From the IMG/VR virus record IMGVR_UViG_3300000233_000015, positions 1-34,889 of that record: a stretch of 34,889 nt of DNA; one strand, 5' to 3'. How positions within the stretch are numbered: position 1 is the stretch's first letter; each line of letters begins with the position of its first letter. The position numbers and the translations under genes were made by a program. Below the pieces are notes generated by a model that was not told the DNA's origin, did no database searches, and saw only the letters and a list, made by a program, of their open reading frames with translations. Positions 5,735-19,203 of the stretch are shown here, piece after piece. Source of the DNA: a virus.

Positions 5735-8491
5735 ATGGGAGTACTTACCGAACGGGAACAGAAATTGGCGGAGACTCTCCGCAATCCGGTCCTTTGGGGG
5801 CAGTCATATCTGCATAACCGGGACGGCAAGCCTCGTAGCTACTGGGATCACCAGACCGAAGACCTGCTCAGCCAGGACCGCAATATCATCCATTTGGATG
5901 GCCGCGATGTTGGCAAGTGTCTGGCCGGTGCTACCCTCGTTACCGATTATGCAACTGGAGAGCGCATTCGCCTAGATCAATTGAAAGAGGGGCGCTCGAT
6001 TGCAGTGCTTGGCCCGGACCAAAAGCTTCATCAAATCTCCGATTATCAAATTCTGAACAATGGCAGAAAGCCTTGCTGGCGCTTGACCACAGTCCTCGGG
6101 CGCTCGATCGTGGCAACCTTCAACCATCCATTCCTGACCGACCATGGTTGGGTGCCGCTCGAAGATTTGAATGTGGGTGGATGGATTGCAGTTCCATCAC
6201 AGTGCCCAACAATGGTGCCGGAAAACCCGGATATCACCGACGATGAGTTGAGGCTCCTCGCACTATTCATTGCCGACGGCGGAGTTGGCTATAGTTCCGC
6301 AGTATTCACCAAGAAAGACACCGTCCTGGTGGATGAGTTCAAAGGAGCCGTAGCCGCTGTATTCCCTGACTTGTTCGTTGTCCCATCTGGTGAATTTGGC
6401 TACAGGGTATCGACGCGAAAAAGAGGGAGCAAGAATTCCTGCGTCACTTGGCTAAGGCGACTTGGTGTCATGGGCAATACCAGCGCAAGCAAGGAAATAC
6501 CCTCGATTATTTTTTCCTGTTCAAGGCGGCAACAGGCACTATTCCTTTCCCGTCTGTACGCCTGCGATGGCTGGTCCTCTTATGGTGGGACTGGTTCTTC
6601 GGAAATAGGTTATTGTTCGGCTTCATATAAATTGGCAGAGGCTGTTGGGCATCTGTTGCTGCGCTTCGGGATTCAGTCGACACTGCGGGAAAGGCTGGTG
6701 AATGATAAGTCCTATTGGTGTGTGGAAGTGCGCTCCTGGCTACACATTGAACGCTTCATACGCTGCATTGGAATGACAGGAATCAAGGGAGCCTGCCTTG
6801 AGGAATTCACTCAACTAAAACCGCTCAACCCAAGAAATGCCCACGACCGCATTCCTTTTGGTCTTGTCGCACCGATTGTCGCCCGACTGAAAAAGTCTGG
6901 GCTGTCTACGCAAGCAATCACTGGTTCCACGACCCGGAGGCTCAGGCTAGGCACCTATTCGCCAATGCGTGATACTGTGATGGATTACGCAGTGAACACC
7001 GAAGAGGAATCCCTGTTTCACTTGGCAGCCTCTGACATCTATTGGGATCAGGTTTTGCAGATCGAGTATGTCGGCGAGATGGAAACCTACGATTTGTCCG
7101 TTCCGCTCTATCACAACTTCGTTGCCAACGACATCATAGTTCACAACAGTATCGTGCTTTCCACCGATGCCTTGCACTTTGCGTTCACGACCAGGGGCGG
7201 CCAAGGATTGATTGCTGCGCCTCACCAAGGGCACCTCGACACGCTGGTTGAAGAAATCGAATTCCAGTTGGACCAGAACCCAGACTTGATGCGTTCGATT
7301 GCGATCACGAACTATGGGAAGCCAAAGATCCATCGCAAGCCCTATTTCCGCATAGAGTTCACCAATGGCTCCGTTCTCTATTTTCGCCCGGCAGGTGCAT
7401 ATGGAGATGCGTTTCGTTCGCTCCATGTGGATCGCGTCTGGGTGGATGAAGGTGCCTGGCTAACCGAGAAGGCATGGAAAGCGCTGCGGCAATGTTTGAA
7501 GACTGGTGGCCGATTGAAGATCTATTCCACTCCCAATGGAATGCGCAACTCCACTTACTATCGCCTGACTCATTCCGAGCAGTTCAAAGTGTTTCGTTGG
7601 CCCTCCTGGTTGAACCCTGGGTGGACAATGGAGCGCGAAGGTGAGTTGCTGGAATTCTACGGAGGGCGGGACACCTCTGGTTGGCAGCACGAAGTCGCTG
7701 GTGAACATGGCAAGCCGAGCTACGGCGCATTTAATATCGAACAGTTTAATCTTTGCAGGCAGGACGTGTTTGAATACCAGAAGGTGGTAATCACGGGCCG
7801 GGAACTCAAGGATTGCGACAGCGAAGCCGCTGCAGCAGACCGGCTGGAGCTCTTGCTCAACCTGACTCCAAAGACAGGAATGTACTGGATCGGGGGCGAC
7901 CTTGGCTACACGAATGACCCAACCGAACTCGTCGTATTCCAAGAAACATCCCTGGGCGACCGGAGCATCGTCTCCATGGTTCTTCGCATTCATATGGAGC
8001 ACGTCGCATACCCGCACATTGCCCAAACCATCGCTTTGCTCGACCGCTACTTTACGCCGGTTGGCATCGGTGTGGACAATGGCGGCAATGGTCTGTCAGT
8101 GGTTCAGGAGCTTCTCACGTTGGACAAGTACAAGGACCTTCAGTTGGAAGGCCGTTTGAAAGGATTGGACTTCGGTGGCATGACGTGCCTTTCCAATCGC
8201 AACGACAAGGAAATCAAGAAGCGGACCAAGGAACTGATGACGAGCCTAATCAACGGCATGCTCCAACGCAAGCAGTTGATCTTCCCGGCCGAGGATCTGG
8301 AGATTGAAGATGAATTCATCACCCACACTTACACACTTCGTGATGGCAAGGTGATCTATTCCAAGGGCAACGACCATATTGTGGATGCAGTTCGTTGTGC
8401 GGTGCTCGTCCGTGAATTGAGCAGCATGGAAGACGCAAAAGAGGAAACTGTGCATCTCATTCCCGTATTGACCAACCCGATCTTCATTTAG
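5735..8491 (+). CDS. terL: Large terminase subunit, interrupted by an intein
   Basis: A 918-residue precursor of the packaging motor. Removal of the 410-residue intein leaves 508 residues, normal for the family. The ATPase Walker A is split: GRDVGK ends at residue 61 and continues with SIVLST after the intein. Walker B is in DRVWVDEG and the coupling motif in LKIYSTPNG. The RNase H-like nuclease domain shows acidic residues in WIGGDLGYTND, VDNGGNG and NDHIVDAVR. It cuts concatemeric DNA and pumps it through the portal. The ribosome-binding site is weak (GAAAGG about 12 bases upstream). It ends with TAG. The P-loop is incomplete until splicing, so no active ATPase should form from unspliced precursor. 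Confidence 0.95.
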   Translation: MGVLTEREQKLAETLRNPVLWGQSYLHNRDGKPRSYWDHQTEDLLSQDRNIIHLDGRDVGKCLAGATLVTDYATGERIRLDQLKEGRSIAVLGPDQKLHQISDYQILNNGRKPCWRLTTVLGRSIVATFNHPFLTDHGWVPLEDLNVGGWIAVPSQCPTMVPENPDITDDELRLLALFIADGGVGYSSAVFTKKDTVLVDEFKGAVAAVFPDLFVVPSGEFGYRVSTRKRGSKNSCVTWLRRLGVMGNTSASKEIPSIIFSCSRRQQALFLSRLYACDGWSSYGGTGSSEIGYCSASYKLAEAVGHLLLRFGIQSTLRERLVNDKSYWCVEVRSWLHIERFIRCIGMTGIKGACLEEFTQLKPLNPRNAHDRIPFGLVAPIVARLKKSGLSTQAITGSTTRRLRLGTYSPMRDTVMDYAVNTEEESLFHLAASDIYWDQVLQIEYVGEMETYDLSVPLYHNFVANDIIVHNSIVLSTDALHFAFTTRGGQGLIAAPHQGHLDTLVEEIEFQLDQNPDLMRSIAITNYGKPKIHRKPYFRIEFTNGSVLYFRPAGAYGDAFRSLHVDRVWVDEGAWLTEKAWKALRQCLKTGGRLKIYSTPNGMRNSTYYRLTHSEQFKVFRWPSWLNPGWTMEREGELLEFYGGRDTSGWQHEVAGEHGKPSYGAFNIEQFNLCRQDVFEYQKVVITGRELKDCDSEAAAADRLELLLNLTPKTGMYWIGGDLGYTNDPTELVVFQETSLGDRSIVSMVLRIHMEHVAYPHIAQTIALLDRYFTPVGIGVDNGGNGLSVVQELLTLDKYKDLQLEGRLKGLDFGGMTCLSNRNDKEIKKRTKELMTSLINGMLQRKQLIFPAEDLEIEDEFITHTYTLRDGKVIYSKGNDHIVDAVRCAVLVRELSSMEDAKEETVHLIPVLTNPIFI
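5918..7147 (+). other. Intein with LAGLIDADG homing endonuclease in TerL
   Basis: A 410-residue insertion starting with Cys (TGT 5918) and ending His-Asn before Ser (AGT 7148), the standard splice residues. Block A is CLAGATLV. Block B is VATFNHPFL with Thr67 and His70 of the intein. Block F/G is near YDLSVPLYHNF and NDIIVHN. Between them are two endonuclease dodecapeptides, LALFIADGG (114-122) and FLSRLYACDGW (209-219), each with the expected acidic residue. The intein looks full-length and active. It interrupts Walker A between Lys and Ser, a highly conserved spot that favours homing. It is spliced at the protein level, so the terminase remains one reading frame. Confidence 0.93.
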
Positions 8492-8574: not shown

Positions 8575-10101
8575 ATGTGCGGAACCTATGCGGGAATAAT
8601 CGTGAAGAAAAGCAATCAAAACCGAAACGACCAACGCCAGACCCAGGGTGCACCTGTTCCACAGAAGGCAACGGCGGCAGCCCTGGATAGTTCCGTTTTC
8701 AGCAAGGTAAGCGCCACTGATGCTATCCCCGTTACTTGGGATGAACGCGGCCGGAAGGCTTGGGAATACTACATCGAAGAACCCCTGGTCAAGAACTGCA
8801 TCAACTCGTGGAGGACCTTTGCCGTAGGCGACGAGATCAAAGTCACGAGCGATGATGAGAAACTCAAGCTGGCAGCGATTGATACATCATACACACTGAA
8901 GGTCTCGCAGTTCATCAAAGACATGATTCTGCAATTGCTGGTGAAGGGCGATGCGATCGGGTTTCGTCGCTACAATGCCAAGGCGACAGACATTGCCGAA
9001 CTGGTGTGTGTTAATCCCATCACAGTCAAGGTCAAGTATTCCGAAGGCAACCTGATTGAAGCGATTCAATACGGCGAACACGGCAGCGTGGGAGGCGATG
9101 GCATTGACCTTCCCGTGGAACATGTATTGCATCTCAAGTGGGATGCGCCCTCGTTCTCGCCCCGTGGCAACTCCATGGTACTTCCTGCCTTCCAGGCCAT
9201 TGAACTTCTGAGGGATTATCGCAAGGCTGAGCAGGCGATTGCAAAGCGCTGGGCAACTCCATTTAGGCTCCTCAAAGTTGGCGGAGCCTTTGGCCAGAAG
9301 ATGGTGATGCCCGACCAGCGGATGCTTGAGCAAGTCCGCGACATGGTGAACAAGATGGATATGAAGAGCGGCCTGGTGGTGCCATTTTATGTGAATGTGG
9401 AAACTCACGGCACCGATGGACAGGTTCTGAATGTCGAGGCCAAGGTGAAGGAAGTCAAAGAGGACATCATTGTTGCCCTTGGCTTATCGCGCTCTTTGGT
9501 ATCGGGCGATGGACCCAACTTCGCCACGGCATCGGTGAGCATGCAGAAGATGATGGTGATGATCCGGGAAATCAAACAGGCAGCGCGAGTCATTCTCGAC
9601 TGGATCTTTGACGATTGGATTCGTCTCAATGGCTTTGATGGAAAGGTTCTGCACTACATCTTCAATGACCTTGATCCAAGCGATGCCGTTGATTTCAAGA
9701 AGCTGCTCTTGGAACTCTATGACCGCAAGCTCATCAGCCGATCCAGCCTGCAGTTGAAAATGGAACTGGATCCGGAAGTCGAGAATGCCAATCGGGAAAC
9801 GGAAAAACAGCATATCGACATCATGGATGAAAAGCAGGTCAAACCCGTGGTCGACATGGTTTTGGCGGGAATCCTCAGCGTAGAAAAAGCGAGAGCAATT
9901 CTCGGCCTTCCTGCGGATAGTGGTACCCCAGCGGCACAGGCGCAAACAGTGCATCATGGAGAACTAAACAGCCAAGGAGATGCACACATTTGCGACGAGT
10001 GCTCGCATTATGATTCTGGCAGTGGCCGTTGCCGAGTGCATGCCTCGGAGCGGGCGTTTGAAGCCCCTGCGTGCCGGTTCTTTGCGGGGCGGGCAAGCTG
10101 A
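8575..10101 (+). CDS. Portal protein with a C-terminal cysteine motif
   Basis: A portal of about 508 residues, the dodecameric ring at the capsid vertex through which DNA passes. Features typical of the family: YYIEEPLVKNCINSW near the N-terminus; a middle region with HVLHLKWDAPSF and GNSMVLPAFQAIELLRDY; and ALGLSRSLVSGDG, then the long helical part with MMVMIREIKQAARVILDW. ATG 8575 is given as the start; GTG 8602 is also possible. Near the C-terminus CDECSHYDSGSGRC and a later PACRFF give four cysteines spaced C-x2-C-x9-C-x13-C, a likely metal site unusual for a portal. Its stop overlaps the next start (TGATG). It lies directly after terminase, as expected. Confidence 0.88.
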   Translation: MCGTYAGIIVKKSNQNRNDQRQTQGAPVPQKATAAALDSSVFSKVSATDAIPVTWDERGRKAWEYYIEEPLVKNCINSWRTFAVGDEIKVTSDDEKLKLAAIDTSYTLKVSQFIKDMILQLLVKGDAIGFRRYNAKATDIAELVCVNPITVKVKYSEGNLIEAIQYGEHGSVGGDGIDLPVEHVLHLKWDAPSFSPRGNSMVLPAFQAIELLRDYRKAEQAIAKRWATPFRLLKVGGAFGQKMVMPDQRMLEQVRDMVNKMDMKSGLVVPFYVNVETHGTDGQVLNVEAKVKEVKEDIIVALGLSRSLVSGDGPNFATASVSMQKMMVMIREIKQAARVILDWIFDDWIRLNGFDGKVLHYIFNDLDPSDAVDFKKLLLELYDRKLISRSSLQLKMELDPEVENANRETEKQHIDIMDEKQVKPVVDMVLAGILSVEKARAILGLPADSGTPAAQAQTVHHGELNSQGDAHICDECSHYDSGSGRCRVHASERAFEAPACRFFAGRAS

Positions 10102-13100
10102 TGGCGTCACCACTGGCAGAACGCATTCGAAAGGCAACACAGGCGGGTTTGGAACGCCGGGACCAGTATGACGCCCAAACGGCAGCAGGACTGACAGAGG
10201 GCTTAATGGATGCCCAGGATCAAGTTGCCAAGGCAATACTGAAATACAAAACCCTGGGTAGCCTTCCCGACAATAAGCTGGCGGCGCTTACTGGTCTTGA
10301 AAAGCTTCAGGGAGAGTTGGCCCAGATCATGCGCGAGCTGAAGCAAGCTCAGACCCTTGCGTTCCGCAAATCTACCCGCGAAGCATTCCGGCTTGGGATT
10401 GGTAGCGGCATTGGGGAACTCACCCAGGCAGCCCTTCCGTTCTACCAGGATCTCACACCCTCAAGTATCGACAAGCTAACATCGAAAGTGTTCACCATCG
10501 TAGATACAGATGCCTTGGATTTCATGACTCAATACAACCTGACGCTTGCAGGTGACGTGCATCGGGAACTTTCCGATGGAATCAAGCGAACCATTCTCAA
10601 TGGCATCGCAACAGGCAAAGGTGCCGACGACATTGTAAGGGATCTTGGTACGGTAATCAAAGACAAGGAGTCCTTTCGGCAGACCGGCACGAAGGTGTTC
10701 AACAAGGCCCAGTATCGAATGGAGATGATTGCTCGGACAGAAGTACTCAGGGCACACAACATGGGCCGCATGAAATTCCATCAGCGAGCAGGAGTTCAGC
10801 GCCTGGAATGGATGGCCATGGATGACGAGCGCATGTGCCCCGTGTGTGGCGCTCAGGACGGTAAGGTTTATCCGATCGAGAAGTTTCCAATGCAGCCTGC
10901 GCATCCGCATTGTCGCTGCACCAACATGGTTGCCTCGCCAATGACTATCTGCGGAGGACCTTTGCAGAGCGTGGCTGCACCCACCGAGCTACAGGGCGAT
11001 ACTTGCATTTTGCCACCGCACGTACTGGAAGGCATGGCCGAGGCGCAGGCAGCAGAAGTGGCAAAGCTACAGGGCGCATTCGAGAATGGATCTCAGGAGG
11101 AACTCAACGCTCTCACAGTCAAGCAACTCCAGACACTAGCCAAAGGCAACGGAATCGCTATTGCAAGAACCAAGTCTGATTTTATGAAGTTGCTCGATGC
11201 GGCCGAACCAGGTGTCGACCATTCCGAACTCGCAGGCACCACACTCCAAGAAAAACTGAAAGCCTACAAGATCGGGCTTCTGAGATCTAAGGAAGACTTG
11301 GCTGTGCTTCTGGCGCAGAAACAGCAGCAATTCAAGCAGGCAAAGCTTCTCGCGGAGCAACAGTCCAAGATTCCGAATGCCGGTGGCTTGAGCGGGTTGA
11401 GTACGCAGCAGCTGAAAGACATGGCCAAGGAAAATGGCATCTCTCAGAATATCACCAAAGAAGATGCGATCGAACTTTTGGACAAGCTTGAACCTGGAGT
11501 AAATCATTCGGGACTTCAGGGCAAGGACCTGGCAGCCTTGAAGCAAAAGCATGGTATCGGGATACTGAAAAACAAGGAGCAGCTGGTCGAAGCATTGCAA
11601 AAGAAAGCAGGCTCCGATCTCGCCGAGAACACAAAGAAGAAAGCCTTAGATGAAGTAACGCAGAAGCTGATCCAGAAACAAAAAGCCGATGTGGAATCGT
11701 TGGTTCAGGGCGTTGGCGTTCCTGCCAATCCCAAGGATTACAAAGTATTCCTTGATTCAGTGCAGAAGGCAGAATCGGCCATTGGTAGTGCAGGCTCTTT
11801 GCCTCAAGACATGCTGGCAGGCCACGCCAAGGAGCTGGCGTTGAAGAAGCAGTTATTCGCGGAGCAAGTCGGCAATCTGAAATCCAGCGACCTGAAGACT
11901 ATCGCAAAGGATACTAAAGTCCAATACTGGCAATGGGCCAACAAGGACGAGCTGACAACTTTGTTCTCGGAGACGGATCCGGCCAAACTTGCGGCTGCCA
12001 AAAAATCAATTGAACAAAAGCATACTGAGTGGGCCACGAAACATGGATCGAAACAGAAAGAGGAAAAGCCTGCGCCAATTGCCGCCCAGAAGCCTGTGCC
12101 TGAGCCCATGCCCGCGAAGCCGCCAAAGAAGGCTAGTGAATTCAGCGATGCAGATCAGGAGTGGCATGCGAAGGGCAAAAATGCGGCCTTCAAATTGGAA
12201 GGGAAAGCCGTTGTTGGAGGTGCGCATGAAAAGGAATTCTGGACTGACGAAAAGGGTCAGAAGTGGCTTTTCAAGCCTGCTGCAAAATCGGCTGACGACT
12301 TTGTTTCCCACGGCGAAGAAACTGCTTATCGGATCGGAAGGCTCCTGAAGGCCGATGCCATTGAAGTCCGAAGCATAAGCCTCAATGGACGGACAGGATC
12401 GATTCAAAAATGGAAATCGGATTTGAAGGAGGACTTCGATTTTCGTTCTACGAATCCTCAGGACCTCACCACTGTTGAACTGGAGCAAATCCAGAAGGAA
12501 CATGTTCTGGACTGGTTGATCGCAAACCATGACGGGCACTCCAAGCAATTTATCCGTAGCCAAGGTGGCCAAGTCTACGGCATCGATAAAGGACAAGCCT
12601 TCAAGTTTCTGGGCAAGGATAAGCTGGATATCGACTACCATCCCAACGGAGCACTGGGTGAAGAAGAACCCTATTACAACAAGGTATTCCGGGCCGCCAA
12701 AGAAGGAAAGATCAAACCGAACCCACAAGTCACCTTCAATGCGATTCAAAATGTAGAACGCATTGCGGATGATGACTATCTGGACTTACTGAAACCTTAC
12801 GCTGAGGGGCGCTTTGGGAAAGATGCCAAAGGCCTTAAGCAATTCTACGAGCAGGCCCTAGAGCGCAAGCATGGCTTGCGTAAAGATTTCGAGCAATACT
12901 ATTCCAATGTGCTAGGCCAGAAGGATTTCCGCTTTGAGGCTGTTCCATTGAAATTGGAAAACCGAAAGATCCTGAATGCCGAAGGCGAAAAATTGGTTGA
13001 AGAAGCTCGCAAGCTTGGCTGGCAGGGTAAAACATTGCCCTTTGATAGCGGTGATGTGGAAGATCAGAATGCATTGATCTTCAGCGATGAGTTCAAAGGA

Positions 13101-14651
13101 AAAGAGCGGACTGTAATCAAAATGAAGATCCGTCCTGAGACCAACAAGAAATTGGTTGCAGCGCTACAGAGCCAAATGGGGCCTGGATCGGCAAAGGTTG
13201 GAGAGCCCCTGGATGATGACAACTTCTATGCCTCGATGCTGAGTGCAGTAAAGACCGCGAACCATCATGCAAGCGATGGGAAATACAATCAGGCAACTCT
13301 GGACAAGGCCTTGCAGATGAGAGACAAATTGGCGGAACTGGCCAAAGGCAAGGATCCGCAGGCGAAAGCGATGGCGGAGAATTATCTCAAGTGGATCGAT
13401 GAACTGAAGACTGCCGTGAATGAGAAGCGAACCCTCAATGGAGTCTTTGAGCAATACACATCCAAACAGGTCGAAGCTCCGAATAAGAAGCCTGAATTCA
13501 AAGTCGATAAGAGCAAAGTAACACACACCAAAAGAAGCCTCAGCAAGGGCAAGGTTATCGCATCGGCAGAGGACGTCGACAACCATGGCATTTTTGGAGG
13601 CAAAAGTCTTCAGAGTGGTGTTCAGTTCAATGCATCCTTTGATGATGGAACGAAGCTTAGGTACCGGCCTCGGGACGATGCCAATCTTTATGCTCAGCGT
13701 GGCGAACTTGAACTAGTCATTGATGGAAAAGCCAGCGGCAAGAATGTGGATGCCATGCTTGAAAAACTAAGCAAGCTAGGCATTGATGCCCAGGTAAGTT
13801 CACCGGAACACACGGAGCGCATGTACCTGGAGAAGATGGCCTACATCCGTAAGGTTGACCATACCTCGGGCTACAAGTCTTTGCAGAAGTCGTTGGAGGA
13901 TCGAGATGCATCCCTTACCGAGCGCGTGCAAGCGATGCGCGGATATTGGCAAAAAGAACTGAACGTGAAGGACATCACGAAGCTTCCAGGCTATGATCCA
14001 ACGGGGGCCTATCAGGAAGGCTTCTTGGATCGGGGAATCAAAGGTGGCTATCGGCATCAGTTCCGATTCGACATTTCGGATGCGGATCTGGAAAAGAACA
14101 TGAAGGGCTATTCCCTTGTGCATAAGCTCACCAACAGTGAAGGTATGGCTGATTTTATCGATACGGTCATGGACAACAATGGGGCCATGGTTAGCACTGT
14201 TGAAAAAATGCGCATGGGCGTCGCACCTGGTGGCATGTCGCCTGTAGCGGATATGCAAAGTGGAGGCGCGAGCTACTTCTTTACACGCATCCAGAAAGAT
14301 CCGCCAAGCAATCCATCACCAGGACTGTACTTCAAGAAGCAGATGCTGCGGCGCATGGATGCCATCAGTTACGGTCATGACGCCTACGGCAAAGTTGTGG
14401 ATGATTATGTCACCAAGAACCGTGGAGCCTCGTTTGAGCAATGGAAAGACTTCTCGGAGAAAAGCAGCAACGAGACCATCTTCAAGTATTCGGTGACTCT
14501 ACTGGATAACATCGAACACATCGTTGCAGGCTCCGCAAATGAGAGAAATCGAATTATTGAAAGTTTCACCAAGCGAGGAATCACGGTGCTTCCCGATGGT
14601 CGCAAGGTTGGCGATGTAGTGCAAACTCCAGGAACATGGGCATCGAGGTAA
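10101..14651 (+). CDS. Giant MuF-type head protein with SAP-like repeats and kinase-like domain
   Basis: A 1516-residue protein starting at ATG 10101, overlapping the portal stop. Residues about 130-280 are a Mu gpF/SPP1 gp7 minor head domain (IARTEVLRAHNMGRMKF, CPVCGAQDG, HPHCRC; Cys246, 249, 271, 273). Residues about 330-505 hold two tandem SAP/Rho-N-like repeats (LTVKQLQTLAKGNGI and LSTQQLKDMAKENGI, both with EPGVxHS), with a weaker third near 590-625. Residues about 690-890 look like an atypical HipA/PI3K-like kinase: WLFKP near 720, NHDGHSKQF with Asp811, GIDKG with Asp829. Residues 900-1516 are unassigned and end with LPDGRKVGDVVQ. The normal family length is 250-600 residues. It may be injected with DNA; that is inference. 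Confidence 0.85.
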   Translation: MASPLAERIRKATQAGLERRDQYDAQTAAGLTEGLMDAQDQVAKAILKYKTLGSLPDNKLAALTGLEKLQGELAQIMRELKQAQTLAFRKSTREAFRLGIGSGIGELTQAALPFYQDLTPSSIDKLTSKVFTIVDTDALDFMTQYNLTLAGDVHRELSDGIKRTILNGIATGKGADDIVRDLGTVIKDKESFRQTGTKVFNKAQYRMEMIARTEVLRAHNMGRMKFHQRAGVQRLEWMAMDDERMCPVCGAQDGKVYPIEKFPMQPAHPHCRCTNMVASPMTICGGPLQSVAAPTELQGDTCILPPHVLEGMAEAQAAEVAKLQGAFENGSQEELNALTVKQLQTLAKGNGIAIARTKSDFMKLLDAAEPGVDHSELAGTTLQEKLKAYKIGLLRSKEDLAVLLAQKQQQFKQAKLLAEQQSKIPNAGGLSGLSTQQLKDMAKENGISQNITKEDAIELLDKLEPGVNHSGLQGKDLAALKQKHGIGILKNKEQLVEALQKKAGSDLAENTKKKALDEVTQKLIQKQKADVESLVQGVGVPANPKDYKVFLDSVQKAESAIGSAGSLPQDMLAGHAKELALKKQLFAEQVGNLKSSDLKTIAKDTKVQYWQWANKDELTTLFSETDPAKLAAAKKSIEQKHTEWATKHGSKQKEEKPAPIAAQKPVPEPMPAKPPKKASEFSDADQEWHAKGKNAAFKLEGKAVVGGAHEKEFWTDEKGQKWLFKPAAKSADDFVSHGEETAYRIGRLLKADAIEVRSISLNGRTGSIQKWKSDLKEDFDFRSTNPQDLTTVELEQIQKEHVLDWLIANHDGHSKQFIRSQGGQVYGIDKGQAFKFLGKDKLDIDYHPNGALGEEEPYYNKVFRAAKEGKIKPNPQVTFNAIQNVERIADDDYLDLLKPYAEGRFGKDAKGLKQFYEQALERKHGLRKDFEQYYSNVLGQKDFRFEAVPLKLENRKILNAEGEKLVEEARKLGWQGKTLPFDSGDVEDQNALIFSDEFKGKERTVIKMKIRPETNKKLVAALQSQMGPGSAKVGEPLDDDNFYASMLSAVKTANHHASDGKYNQATLDKALQMRDKLAELAKGKDPQAKAMAENYLKWIDELKTAVNEKRTLNGVFEQYTSKQVEAPNKKPEFKVDKSKVTHTKRSLSKGKVIASAEDVDNHGIFGGKSLQSGVQFNASFDDGTKLRYRPRDDANLYAQRGELELVIDGKASGKNVDAMLEKLSKLGIDAQVSSPEHTERMYLEKMAYIRKVDHTSGYKSLQKSLEDRDASLTERVQAMRGYWQKELNVKDITKLPGYDPTGAYQEGFLDRGIKGGYRHQFRFDISDADLEKNMKGYSLVHKLTNSEGMADFIDTVMDNNGAMVSTVEKMRMGVAPGGMSPVADMQSGGASYFFTRIQKDPPSNPSPGLYFKKQMLRRMDAISYGHDAYGKVVDDYVTKNRGASFEQWKDFSEKSSNETIFKYSVTLLDNIEHIVAGSANERNRIIESFTKRGITVLPDGRKVGDVVQTPGTWASR

Positions 14652-15509: not shown

Positions 15510-15569
15510 CGTCATCTGAAACGAGCCTCCGGTAAGAAACCAAAGAACCGCTTTTTGCGGACTCTTTGG
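15510..15569 (+). promoter_or_regulatory. Conserved phage leader element, copy 3 of 5
   Basis: CGTCAT (15510-15515) and TCCGGTAAGAAA (15528-15539) start 18 bp apart. The strongest hairpin of the set follows: CCAAAGA (15540-15546) pairs with TCTTTGG (15563-15569), and CCGC (15548-15551) with GCGG (15557-15560) around TTTTT. A smaller stem CTCGT/ACGAG (15509-15513, 15520-15524 region) encloses the first motif. No T run follows, so it is not a simple terminator. It ends 18 bases before ATG 15588. Confidence 0.65.
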
Positions 15570-15587
15570 CCTTAAACGGAGTTGTGA

Positions 15588-17960
15588 ATGGAACTATTTG
15601 CCACAGATCGTGAGAAATTGGCGTTTCTCCTGGAAGTGGATGCTGCGCTTGCGGTGGAGGACGAGGAACTCCAAAGCCAGGCTGCGGCTGAGGGTACCCC
15701 GGATCCCGCCACTTCAGAGGATCGCCCCAAGTATATCACCAACTACATCGGAAGCAAACAGAAGCTTGTGGATTGGATCTGGAAGCACACACCGGATACT
15801 GCAAATTCGGTGGTCGATGCGTTTTCTGGTTCCTCTGTCGTTGCCTACATGTACAAGAGCAAAGGCATGAAGGTCTTTGCAAATGACCGCTTGAGGTATT
15901 CCTACCATGCAGCCCGAGCCATCATTGAGAATAGTTCTTCACGCCTAAGCGACGACGAAATCGATGCGCTCCTAGCGGATAACGGCAAGGCGGGATCCTT
16001 TGTTCAGGATAACTTCAAGGGACTGTTCTTCGGTAAAGGGGTCCATGCCATCATTGATTCCGTGCGGGCCAATTGCGATGCGCTTTCGGGCTTCAAGAAG
16101 GACATCGCTCTTTTTGGTCTCGGAAAAACCTGTGCGAGCGGTGGCTTCGGTCATTTCTCTTCATCGACCCACACGGGTATGCGCATGGCGACTCCGGATA
16201 AGTTCCGGGAAAGCCTAAAAGCGAATTTGCAGCGGATCAATGCGCTGGTCTTCGATAATGGCAAAGAGAACAAGGCCTACCAGAAGGATGTGAACGAGCT
16301 TCTACCCAAAGTGAATGCTGATCTGGCCTACTTTGACCCACCTTACGCAACAGAGTTCTCCACCACAAACTATGAGAAGTCCTACCACTTTGTGGAAGGA
16401 CTCATGACCTATTGGGAAGGCAAGAAAATCGTGGCGGACTCGAAGACTAAGTTCTACGAGACCGACCATGTGACGGTGAGCAAGACCAACGCCGATGAGT
16501 TCTTCAGAACCTTTCTGGGCAATGCCACAAGCATCCCCCAATGGCTGATTTCATACCGGGATCACGCATATCCCAATGAACAACAGATGAAGAAGATCAT
16601 CGCCGACCACGGTCGCACATCTTCCATGAAATCGAAAAGCCATCTATACACTATCACGGCCAAACGAGGTGCAGCCTCAAGCGCCCAGGAACGGCTATTC
16701 ATTTGCCAAAAGGCAGAAGGCTCCCGTAGCAACGCCGACAATACGGACACCCCAGCACTTGAGTCCCAGGCGAACTTCCATACCTCATTTCCGGTCAACT
16801 TGTCTGCCAAGGGTGGCGTTCTATCTACCGAGGCCATTGAAACCGGATCCACGGTAGATCCTCAGTTCTCCTTTGTGCTTTGCAGAACAGGCACTAATAA
16901 GAATGGCGACCACTTCACAGTGGAGGAACTCTCCTCACGGTACATGACTGCGATCAACAAGAAGGTTGACCTTCAGCATTCCCAAGAGTTCTCAGACATT
17001 GTAGGCGGCATTGTAGCAGCCGAATATCGTGAAGATGAAAATGGCGGGCGCGTAGAATGCGTTGGCGAACTGTTCACCAATGAGAGTGTGCATGCCCGGC
17101 TCTCCCACAAGCTAATGAAGCGCGGCATCATTTCCCAAGTATCCATGGAGTGCGACTATGTGGAAGGGGAATGTTCCGTTTGCAGCAAGCGCTTCAAGAG
17201 CAAGGCGGATTACTGCACGCACTTGCGCAAGTACAAGGGCAGCGAAATGGCTGGCAAGCCAGTCTATGAAATCCTTCATGGCGTGACCTTCACAGGCCTT
17301 GGCCTCCTCGACCGCAAAGGTGCCGACGAGAACGCAAGGATTCTTCAGGTTGCCTCACGAAATCAAGACACAAAAGAAACACCCAATCAAGGAGATCCGT
17401 CCATGGACGACAATAACGAGAATCACGGTGAACCAAACGCCGAGGCTGCCAAGAAGGGCAAGGAACCAGCAGGAGGTGGTGCCACTCCACCTGCGGACAT
17501 CGACCTGAAGAAGGAAAACCAGCAATTGAAGGCAAAGGTATCCGAACTTCAGAAGCGTATCCAGGAGCTTGAAGCCGAGCAAAAAGCCGCAGCCTGCAAG
17601 ACCCGCGCTGAAAAGCTCATGGAAAAGATCGAAAAGCAAGGTGTGCGCTTTGCTTCCGATGATGAGCGTCAGACCGAATTCAAACGGTTGACCGCACTTT
17701 CTGACGAGGCCTTTGCAGCCACAGAAGCCGCCTTTTCACGTATTCCTGCCACGGAAACCAAGAAGGATGAACCTCAGGGGGACAAGGGTGGCGAACGCCG
17801 CTCCCAGGGCAACGAGAAGCCGAACCGGGCCGAGGCCAGCATTCGACCACGCGACATCAACGACGGAAAGAGTTCCCTGGAGGATCGCCTGAAGTCGGGA
17901 TTTATGGCGGCCTACAAGAACCGCATTGGCACTGAACAAGACAACAACGCAAACCAGTAA
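15588..17960 (+). CDS. DNA adenine methyltransferase / prohead protease / scaffold fusion
   Basis: A 790-residue fusion starting at ATG 15588 after ACGGAG. Residues about 48-370 are a D12-class adenine-N6 methyltransferase: GSKQKL (55-60), the AdoMet-binding DAFSGSSVV (77-85) and the catalytic DPPY (250-253). Residues about 425-595 look like a capsid maturation protease, with His464 in LQHSQEF and Ser519 in SQVSMEC as likely catalytic pair, and a zinc-like cluster Cys529, Cys532, Cys543, His545. From about 600 the chain is acidic and disordered, then a coiled coil (ENQQLKAKVSELQKRIQELE), typical of scaffold. The major capsid gene follows closely. Protease plus scaffold in one frame is known; adding a methyltransferase is unusual. 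There is no stop or frameshift between the parts. Confidence 0.88.
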   Translation: MELFATDREKLAFLLEVDAALAVEDEELQSQAAAEGTPDPATSEDRPKYITNYIGSKQKLVDWIWKHTPDTANSVVDAFSGSSVVAYMYKSKGMKVFANDRLRYSYHAARAIIENSSSRLSDDEIDALLADNGKAGSFVQDNFKGLFFGKGVHAIIDSVRANCDALSGFKKDIALFGLGKTCASGGFGHFSSSTHTGMRMATPDKFRESLKANLQRINALVFDNGKENKAYQKDVNELLPKVNADLAYFDPPYATEFSTTNYEKSYHFVEGLMTYWEGKKIVADSKTKFYETDHVTVSKTNADEFFRTFLGNATSIPQWLISYRDHAYPNEQQMKKIIADHGRTSSMKSKSHLYTITAKRGAASSAQERLFICQKAEGSRSNADNTDTPALESQANFHTSFPVNLSAKGGVLSTEAIETGSTVDPQFSFVLCRTGTNKNGDHFTVEELSSRYMTAINKKVDLQHSQEFSDIVGGIVAAEYREDENGGRVECVGELFTNESVHARLSHKLMKRGIISQVSMECDYVEGECSVCSKRFKSKADYCTHLRKYKGSEMAGKPVYEILHGVTFTGLGLLDRKGADENARILQVASRNQDTKETPNQGDPSMDDNNENHGEPNAEAAKKGKEPAGGGATPPADIDLKKENQQLKAKVSELQKRIQELEAEQKAAACKTRAEKLMEKIEKQGVRFASDDERQTEFKRLTALSDEAFAATEAAFSRIPATETKKDEPQGDKGGERRSQGNEKPNRAEASIRPRDINDGKSSLEDRLKSGFMAAYKNRIGTEQDNNANQ
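17403..17960 (+). CDS. Nested internal start: separate scaffold protein (185 residues)
   Basis: Inside the fusion gene, in the same frame, ATG 17403 is preceded by AAGGAG (17389-17394) eight bases upstream, as good as any start in the window. It opens exactly where the protease-like part ends and the acidic coiled-coil part begins. The product (MDDNNENHGE onward) would be a free scaffold of 185 residues, like Nu3 inside gene C of phage lambda. Internal translation would let scaffold outnumber protease. The site is seen in the sequence; its use is inference. Confidence 0.7.
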   Translation: MDDNNENHGEPNAEAAKKGKEPAGGGATPPADIDLKKENQQLKAKVSELQKRIQELEAEQKAAACKTRAEKLMEKIEKQGVRFASDDERQTEFKRLTALSDEAFAATEAAFSRIPATETKKDEPQGDKGGERRSQGNEKPNRAEASIRPRDINDGKSSLEDRLKSGFMAAYKNRIGTEQDNNANQ

Positions 17961-17969
17961 GGAGAGAAT

Positions 17970-18332
17970 ATGGGATTTATCAATCCATGCCATCGCGGAA
18001 GGGCCTACGGCGATGGTTACATACAAGGCGAAGGTTCCATCGGTCAGCTTGTGAAAGTTGTCGGCGATGATCTATTCGCGGTCAACACTGACAGTACCGC
18101 CCGGTCATTCGGAATCCTGATCAAGACATACAAGAGTGGTGAAATGCCAGGCATTTACACCGAAGGCGGTGTTTATGAAACGGATGTCTACGAAGGCAAC
18201 ATCGTAGCCGGAGACCTCTTGAAGGTTTCTGCTTCCGGCAAGATCACGGCAGGCGTTACCGCTGGTGACCTTGTGATCGGCCAAGCCCTGACTGCCAAGA
18301 GTGGCACCATCAAATTCCAGCTTCACCTGTAA
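17970..18332 (+). CDS. Probable head decoration protein
   Basis: A 120-residue protein with AAGGAG just before ATG 17970. It is Gly-, Val- and Ile-rich with short strands and no helix of note (ETDVYEGNIVAGDLLKVSAS, then DLVIGQALTAKSGTIKFQL). This repetitive beta pattern, with a stretch about loading and reporting values on a capsid-like lattice absent, resembles small decoration or DUF2190-like proteins encoded between scaffold and major capsid genes. It would bind the outside of the expanded capsid. The call rests mostly on position and fold impression. Confidence 0.6.
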   Translation: MGFINPCHRGRAYGDGYIQGEGSIGQLVKVVGDDLFAVNTDSTARSFGILIKTYKSGEMPGIYTEGGVYETDVYEGNIVAGDLLKVSASGKITAGVTAGDLVIGQALTAKSGTIKFQLHL

Positions 18333-18339
18333 GGAGTGC

Positions 18340-19203
18340 ATGATGAAGGTTGAACACGATATCCATAGCCAAGAATACATGGAAACCATGGGCAAGCTGA
18401 TGAGCGAAGCCATGGAATCTCCGGAGGGCATGCAGGCATTGGCGGCAGCAATTGCGGCCCCCATCGAACAGGAAGTCAAGCGTAAGGAAATTTCCTCCTT
18501 GCTTTTGACGCGTCACACCTTGCCCAAGGGAGAGCGTGCCGTGTATCAGAAGAAACCTCTCGTAAAGGCCTTCTGGATCAGCAAGGACGGCGAAGCGCAG
18601 GAGCAGGAAGTCGGTGAAGATGAAGTCGAATTTCCGACCAATCGAATCCACTCGAACCCCATGGTCGATGTGTCCGTGTTGAAGAACGGCAACATCGGAA
18701 CCCTCATGGATATCCAGAGCAGCGCCGCTGATTCCATCCGTAAGGAGATGGACCGTCGTACTCTGAATGTGCTTTCCAATGCGGTACCTGCTGCGAACAC
18801 CATCGAAGTCACTGGCAATGTCCTGACCGAAGAGGCGCTCAATGAGGCCATTTCGATCATTGAAGACATGGAGCTTACGGTGAAGTATATCGTGATGCGC
18901 GGTCGCCGTTTCAATGATATCCGTGATTGGGATCTTGATCCACAGACCACACTTGAGCTACGCCAGAAGGGCGTGGTTAAGAACTACGGTACCGGTGGCA
19001 TCCTTCTCACGGCAGCAATGCCTATGGATGAGATTCTCATCATTCCCGATGAGGAAATCGGCAAGATGCCTGTGCGCGAAGCTCTCAAGTCCGAGTCCGT
19101 GGACAAGAAAACCCGTTTCAAAACGGGCTGGCTGGTCTGGTCTGAAATCGGCCAGGGCGTAACCCGTCCTGACATCATGGCAAAAATCAAGCTCGGAGCA
19201 TAA
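18340..19203 (+). CDS. Major capsid protein (HK97-fold candidate)
   Basis: A protein of about 287 residues that forms the capsid shell. Its start is ATG 18340 or 18343, behind AAGGAG (18331-18336). It has a helical acidic N-terminus (residues 1-50), then features common in capsid proteins: FPTNRIHSNPMVDVSVL, MDRRTLNVLSNAV, a long helix in LNEAISIIEDMELTVKYI, and IMRGRRFNDIRDW-like central strands (MRGRRFNDIRDW). The position after protease, scaffold and decoration genes is that expected, and the strong ribosome-binding site fits high expression. The N-terminal helical part may be cut by the maturation protease. I infer the HK97 fold from gene order and length rather than from a diagnostic motif. 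Confidence 0.8.
   Translation: MMKVEHDIHSQEYMETMGKLMSEAMESPEGMQALAAAIAAPIEQEVKRKEISSLLLTRHTLPKGERAVYQKKPLVKAFWISKDGEAQEQEVGEDEVEFPTNRIHSNPMVDVSVLKNGNIGTLMDIQSSAADSIRKEMDRRTLNVLSNAVPAANTIEVTGNVLTEEALNEAISIIEDMELTVKYIVMRGRRFNDIRDWDLDPQTTLELRQKGVVKNYGTGGILLTAAMPMDEILIIPDEEIGKMPVREALKSESVDKKTRFKTGWLVWSEIGQGVTRPDIMAKIKLGA

Follow-up and report, generated by a model that had tools for sequence, protein, structure and literature searches.

A phage head-assembly gene joining a D12-class DNA methyltransferase to a prohead protease and a scaffold with a predicted start of its own

In phage lambda, the C/Nu3 gene encodes a protease and a scaffold in one reading frame, within which a further in-frame start codon also gives the scaffold. 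The protease is of the S49 family, and C/Nu3 carries no methyltransferase (MTase). The Dar proteins of phage P1, including the methylase-helicase DarB, are packaged into the head and co-ejected with the DNA, which they protect against type I restriction (PMC12810830, PMC5512222). In the present study, we analysed a viral DNA stretch of 34,889 nt from IMG/VR (IMGVR_UViG_3300000233_000015; hereafter the window), in which a single gene combines an MTase, a prohead protease and a scaffold. Like lambda gpC/Nu3, this is a nested protease-scaffold gene for which an internal scaffold start is predicted; unlike gpC/Nu3, its protease has the herpesvirus/gp21 fold and is preceded by one or two N-terminal MTases. 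In its proposed function, the MTase would parallel P1 DarB, an adenine methylase associated with the head for which a role in protecting entering DNA has been proposed (PMC5512222, PMC12810830). DarB, in contrast, is a separate protein of about 2,000 aa in which an MTase of EcoKI/TaqI type, not D12, is fused to an SWI2/SNF2 helicase, and no helicase domain was found in the composite ORF with Pfam or PHROG. When the composite ORF, which is multidomain and lies in a head operon, was compared by text terms with the domain set of the polyvalent proteins (Iyer et al. 2017), 'D12' was absent from that text and 'prohead' and 'protease' appeared in its reference list only. A literature search, the scope of which left out most subscription journals, found no paper describing an MTase-protease-scaffold fusion. 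Nested protease-scaffold genes and virion-borne methylases are each known; their combination was not found reported. We read the locus as a composite head-assembly gene whose MTase would travel as cargo of the procapsid, be released by the protease and enter the new cell along with the DNA to act against restriction in the manner of DarB, and we give this reading a probability of about 0.55. The features on which the analysis draws are the following.

8575..10101 (+): portal protein (phrog_2739, E 3e-61)
10071..14651 (+): minor head protein of the MuF/SPP1 gp7 type, very much extended at its C-terminus (PF04233, E 2e-14; TIGR01641)
15577..15581 (+): CGGAG, ribosome-binding site for full-length translation, 6 nt 5' of ATG 15588
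15588..17960 (+): composite ORF, MTase - prohead protease - scaffold (PHROG 27806 match; 135 fused ORFs)
15588..15725 (+): N-terminal segment, residues 1-46, with the conserved motif FLLE-[ATV]-[DE]-A
15726..16727 (+): D12-class N6-adenine DNA MTase, residues 47-380 (PF02086, PADLOC MTase_II, DPPY)
16728..16835 (+): variable linker, residues 381-416, ending in LSTEA (412-416), a candidate cleavage site
16836..17363 (+): prohead protease, residues 417-592, modelled herpesvirus/T4 gp21 fold (H464, S519, H545, D441)
17172..17222 (+): zinc-finger-like insert within the protease, C529-x2-C532 ... C543-x-H545, invariant in alignment A2
17389..17394 (+): predicted internal Shine-Dalgarno AAGGAG of the free scaffold (43/48 lineages against 19/2063 elsewhere)
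17403..17960 (+): predicted internal in-frame scaffold gene, 185 aa from M606 (start codon kept, helices in model)
17970..18332 (+): head decoration-like protein (phrog_673, E 1e-9), kept adjacent to the fusion
18343..19203 (+): major capsid protein, HK97 fold (phrog_2522, E 2e-90; NF042927, 288 bits)

The composite ORF is a single open frame which starts at an ATG and encodes 790 aa. Gene order in the window is TerL (with an intein), portal, MuF, two small ORFs, the fusion, the decoration-like protein and the major capsid protein (MCP), and the order portal-MuF-fusion-decoration-MCP is conserved in complete genomes. The ORF thus occupies the usual place of a head protease-scaffold gene. PHROG 27806 represents the same protein (1126.8 bits in a profile search, residues 1-789 of 798 matched), and its annotation, 'DNA methyltransferase' only, omits the protease and the scaffold. 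An earlier note, made from the letters of this DNA, had proposed one frame holding a D12 MTase, a protease and a coiled-coil scaffold in that order; the ORF analysis, Pfam and the fold model confirmed it, and GSKQKL, DAFSGSS and DPPY lie at the positions claimed. The accompanying view of a single product needs correction, as two products are probably made from the ORF by way of the internal scaffold start. The full-length AlphaFold model (pLDDT 49) was too poor for the relative placement of the domains. A GGAG-type site ahead of M1 is common to most relatives inspected. In the N-terminal segment, T6, D7 and F13-E16 are invariant in alignment A1, and the FLLE/FILE motif is also present in most diverged double-MTase forms; the segment is missing from MTase-less relatives, and no second copy of FLLE was found in the window. 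A hairpin-like stretch (15520-15580) in the gap that separates the preceding gene from the fusion's M1 apparently occurs in relatives too, where the alignment gave only 4 alignable pairs.

The fusion is widespread and long conserved. Searching IMG/VR with the composite protein returned 67 loci, and further loci were found in bacterial genomes; across both sources, MTase, protease and scaffold stand in one frame in 135 ORFs, 48 of them non-redundant after clustering at 90% identity. Fused ORFs are present in two complete chromosomes (Sulfidibacter corallicola and Desulfosarcina alkanivorans), in the isolates Desulfobulbus rhabdoformis, Desulfocarbo indianensis and Pontiellaceae B12219, and in metagenome bins assigned to Acidobacteriota, Armatimonadota and Calditrichota. 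The phages and prophages of this lineage belong for the most part to sulphate reducers and to other bacteria of the environment. A search that used solely the protease region as query kept 80 loci, and the MTase was present in all that were long enough to tell. The N-terminal MTase on a protease-scaffold gene had been called rare; within this lineage it is the rule, and many members carry two. The same note had allowed that separate ORFs in all close relatives would betray a lost stop codon, and the relatives proved to be fused. A sequencing or assembly error, or the chance loss of a stop codon between two neighbouring genes, could draw on a few split frames: one inside the protease (L039), one inside the MTase (L060) and one broken in several places, protease and scaffold among them (L217). 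None of these splits falls cleanly between domains, and they look like frameshifts, which would break a frame within domains in just this way. With 48 non-redundant continuous fusions, also in complete chromosomes, we give such an origin almost no credence, and a lost stop codon or chimeric assembly was rejected on these grounds.

The MTase belongs to the D12 family, since Pfam MethyltransfD12 (PF02086) matches residues 53-303 above its cut-off (E 3.9e-25, 89.5 bits against 22) and both motif I (DAFSGSS) and motif IV (DPPY) are present; PADLOC MTase_II also matches the domain (E 3e-48). DPPY is kept in every MTase copy examined, and motif I was found, with the pattern used, in all but two fused copies. 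The ratio omega (dN/dS) is 0.04-0.09 for the MTase, 0.02-0.07 for the protease and about 0.1-0.2 for the scaffold, and is higher in the linker (about 0.2-0.6). All three domains are under purifying selection. An enzyme inactive for lack of key residues had been named as a possible objection; the motifs and the selection on the enzyme proved intact. The Dam (GATC) subfamily was considered and rejected, as TIGR00571 scored 26.7 bits against a cut-off of 114.85, and the GATC count of the window, near expectation (0.96), is uninformative on specificity. A sequence search of solved structures found no relative of the MTase.

The closest free-standing relatives of the fused MTases are type II methyltransferases. 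Where two copies are fused, both match best the C-terminal half of a two-domain 643-aa enzyme, and a free-standing member of that family adjoins an AlwI-type endonuclease. Among known groups, the AlwI/FokI-type D12 MTases of type IIS systems give the best profile match to the fused MTases; those systems include an endonuclease, whereas none is present here, and the phage MTases form a group of their own, apart from the free-standing ones sampled (99 SH-aLRT in the tree). The one sequence labelled as free-standing but placed among the fused ones, L060, is a fusion broken by a frameshift. At another locus, an MTase 66% identical to that of the window lies inside a different phage gene (L056:7749-9668), and an adjacent copy of that gene with the same start (L056:9672-10622) has no MTase match; module transfer or chimeric assembly would account for this arrangement.

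The protease region gave no significant match in Pfam, and PHROG 'head maturation protease' families matched most members weakly. An AlphaFold (AF2) model of the domain, built with 22 sequences, reached a pLDDT of 90.6. VIA-align matched this model best to T4 gp21 (5jbl; Z 11.0, 127 residues, 2.7 A), followed by herpesvirus assemblins, the best at Z about 8-10, and the matches in BFVD included phage G gp19 and many prohead proteases; Foldseek by itself gave no significant match against the PDB. On VIA-align and BFVD, the modelled domain has the herpesvirus/T4 gp21-type prohead protease fold. D441, H464, S519 and H545 are invariant across the fused group, the MTase-less L067 family and phage G (alignment A3), and the conserved His and Ser of gp21/assemblin-type proteases are found as H464 and S519. 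From this conservation, H464 and S519 are the more probable catalytic residues, possibly joined by H545, and the candidates for a third member are H545 and D441. The order is His-Ser-His, with 26 residues between S519 and H545; the corresponding Ser-His spacing in the protease of the herpesvirus HCMV is 25. In addition, H545 is part of the Cys/His cluster (C529, C532, C543, H545), a weak match to Pfam zf-C2H2; in the L067 family, the cysteines of this insert are absent and the His is kept. Accordingly, the maturation protease claimed earlier stood, with a gp21 fold, and the Cys/His cluster given as part of it did not stand as a protease signature, being a zinc-finger-like insert. The domain thus shares with T4 gp21 and the herpesvirus assemblins the fold, the invariant His and Ser and a second His, here 26 residues past the Ser, and differs from them in the zinc-finger-like insert after the Ser and the N-terminal MTase. 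Two uncultured phage proteins annotated as Dps/ferritin (BFVD A0A6J5N5R9 and A0A6J5RFH1) contain the same prohead-protease fold; judged by their names, fusion of a cargo to a capsid protease may be more widespread.

The scaffold region comprises residues 606-790, with a coiled coil at about residues 636-683 (helices in the model), and PF06810 (Phage_scaffold) matched the scaffolds of relatives weakly. Directly before it, AAGGAG (17389-17394) stands 8 nt ahead of ATG 17403, the codon of residue 606. A 6-nt Shine-Dalgarno with an in-frame start at the protease/scaffold junction was found in 43 of the 48 lineages, a few of these matches being weaker or differently placed (e.g. L050), and a 5-nt match in two more; at all other positions of these ORFs, the 6-nt site preceded 19 of 2063 in-frame start codons (0.9%). 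The junction residue is M, V or L, and its codon is always ATG, GTG or TTG where the site was found. An internal ribosome site and start of the lambda C/Nu3 type are thus present, and the gene probably yields abundant free scaffold together with a minor MTase-protease-scaffold form. The site also occurs in relatives that have no MTase: the MTase-less Sulfidibacter copy has AAAGGAGACACT then TTG at the same scaffold junction, and the L067 family has AGGAG then ATG in 13/13 members checked. The nested scaffold start is therefore independent of the MTase and, judged from these sequences, probably predates it. No other recurrent internal start was found in the fused ORFs, and none ahead of the protease, so that the protease seems never to be translated without the enzyme and every protease molecule would bring an MTase.

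These MTase-less relatives bear on what the enzyme is for. A second Sulfidibacter prophage (L301) encodes a 425-aa protease-scaffold without MTase, its protease 44% identical, next to portal-, MuF- and MCP-like ORFs; the L067 family of IMG/VR has protease-scaffold, decoration protein and MCP without MTase. Together with phage G gp19 (protease only), they share with the fused ORFs a homologous protease with a capsid protein downstream; for L301 and the L067 family, the scaffold and its internal Shine-Dalgarno and start are common features too. They differ in having no MTase and in starting about 40-80 residues before the protease. As the same gene set is kept in these relatives, assembly does not need the MTase, which would thus be an add-on domain kept for another reason. 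The MTase-less state is likely ancestral; in the protease tree, the outgroup branches at the root are saturated.

We also found that 30 of the 48 non-redundant fused lineages have a tandem pair of D12 domains. In the MTase tree, the second copies fall into a single clade, and single MTases group with first copies; switches between single and double forms occur several times in the protease tree. The chromosome of D. alkanivorans PL12 holds one two-MTase and one one-MTase prophage (G001:C1 300947-304771 and 389136-391508). AlwI/FokI-like two-domain enzymes methylate asymmetric sites, one strand per domain. By analogy with these type II relatives, the tandem forms may methylate both strands of an asymmetric site, each MTase serving one strand. 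A variable dose of one or two MTases that has changed repeatedly suits an arms race.

According to the delivery reading, full-length translation would give a minor MTase-protease-scaffold protein, and translation from ATG 17403 would give an excess of free scaffold. Through its scaffold domain, the long form would bring protease and MTase together into the procapsid, where the herpesvirus-type protease would cut the scaffold away, mature the head and probably free the MTase. The freed enzyme would stay in the head, be injected with the DNA and, most likely, methylate the incoming phage DNA and so blunt restriction. Entry into the procapsid by way of the scaffold, as suggested before, is supported by the gene structure, and since the scaffold has a conserved internal start of its own and the protease has none, the MTase would come with the protease. 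In a more specific form of this reading, which we hold at somewhat less than an even chance, scaffold and protease act as a loading and release device: one or two MTases, as the N-terminus of the protease, would enter the procapsid at protease copy number, be cut free, be co-injected and methylate the DNA on arrival, the two-enzyme forms modifying both strands of an asymmetric site. As regards release, the motif L-x-[STD]-E-A-hydrophobic occurs in the MTase-protease linker (including LSTEA 412-416), in the scaffold and at the MCP N-terminus; these are 3 of its 4 matches in the window, with about 0.4 expected, the motif having been picked post hoc after these sites were seen. As putative cleavage sites they are only a lead.

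The enzyme could instead work in the producing cell, before or during packaging, on progeny DNA or on the packaging site while the long form is on procapsids, and then be destroyed with the scaffold and never delivered. Many phages protect their DNA by modification before packaging, and P1 pac cutting depends on adenine methylation; an enzyme tied to procapsids stands where the DNA enters, and S-adenosylmethionine is available in the cell. For such a task a free-standing gene would be simpler, yet an intact MTase gene of its own beside the protease was found in none of the lineages, and we regard this account as possible but doubtful. We consider it quite improbable that the MTase domain serves chiefly to bind DNA or as a structural element of the protease-scaffold, for instance by holding DNA or the portal during assembly, with catalysis secondary. 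The covalent tie to the scaffold in all lineages and the conserved N-terminal segment, which has no assigned role, would fit a structural part; however, the catalytic motifs are intact in every copy, and the MTase-less relatives argue that assembly proceeds without the domain.

If delivery of the MTase with the DNA is correct, the gene would show how an active enzyme can be loaded into a phage head by simple genetic means, through fusion to the protease, transport by the scaffold and possibly release on maturation, and virion-borne anti-restriction would extend past P1-like phages to those of sulphate reducers and other environmental phyla. It would offer a natural blueprint for cargo loading, and the timing of methylation of incoming phage DNA becomes directly testable in cultured lysogens. 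The analysis also corrects genes annotated 'DNA methyltransferase' only.

Some further observations were made on the neighbouring genes. The family matched by the protein at 17970-18332, phrog_673, is annotated 'head scaffolding protein', and the position of the gene before the MCP suggests a decoration protein. The MuF-type protein (10071-14651) has 1526 aa with a C-terminal extension of about 1000 residues; orthologues in other prophages have about 534-548 aa (L088:6669-8273; L082:8258-9904), so the extension is the variable part, possibly a cargo, and a weak HipA_C-like match lies near residues 800-845. At 5735-8491 of the window, an intein that contains a LAGLIDADG endonuclease splits TerL (about residues 61-473).
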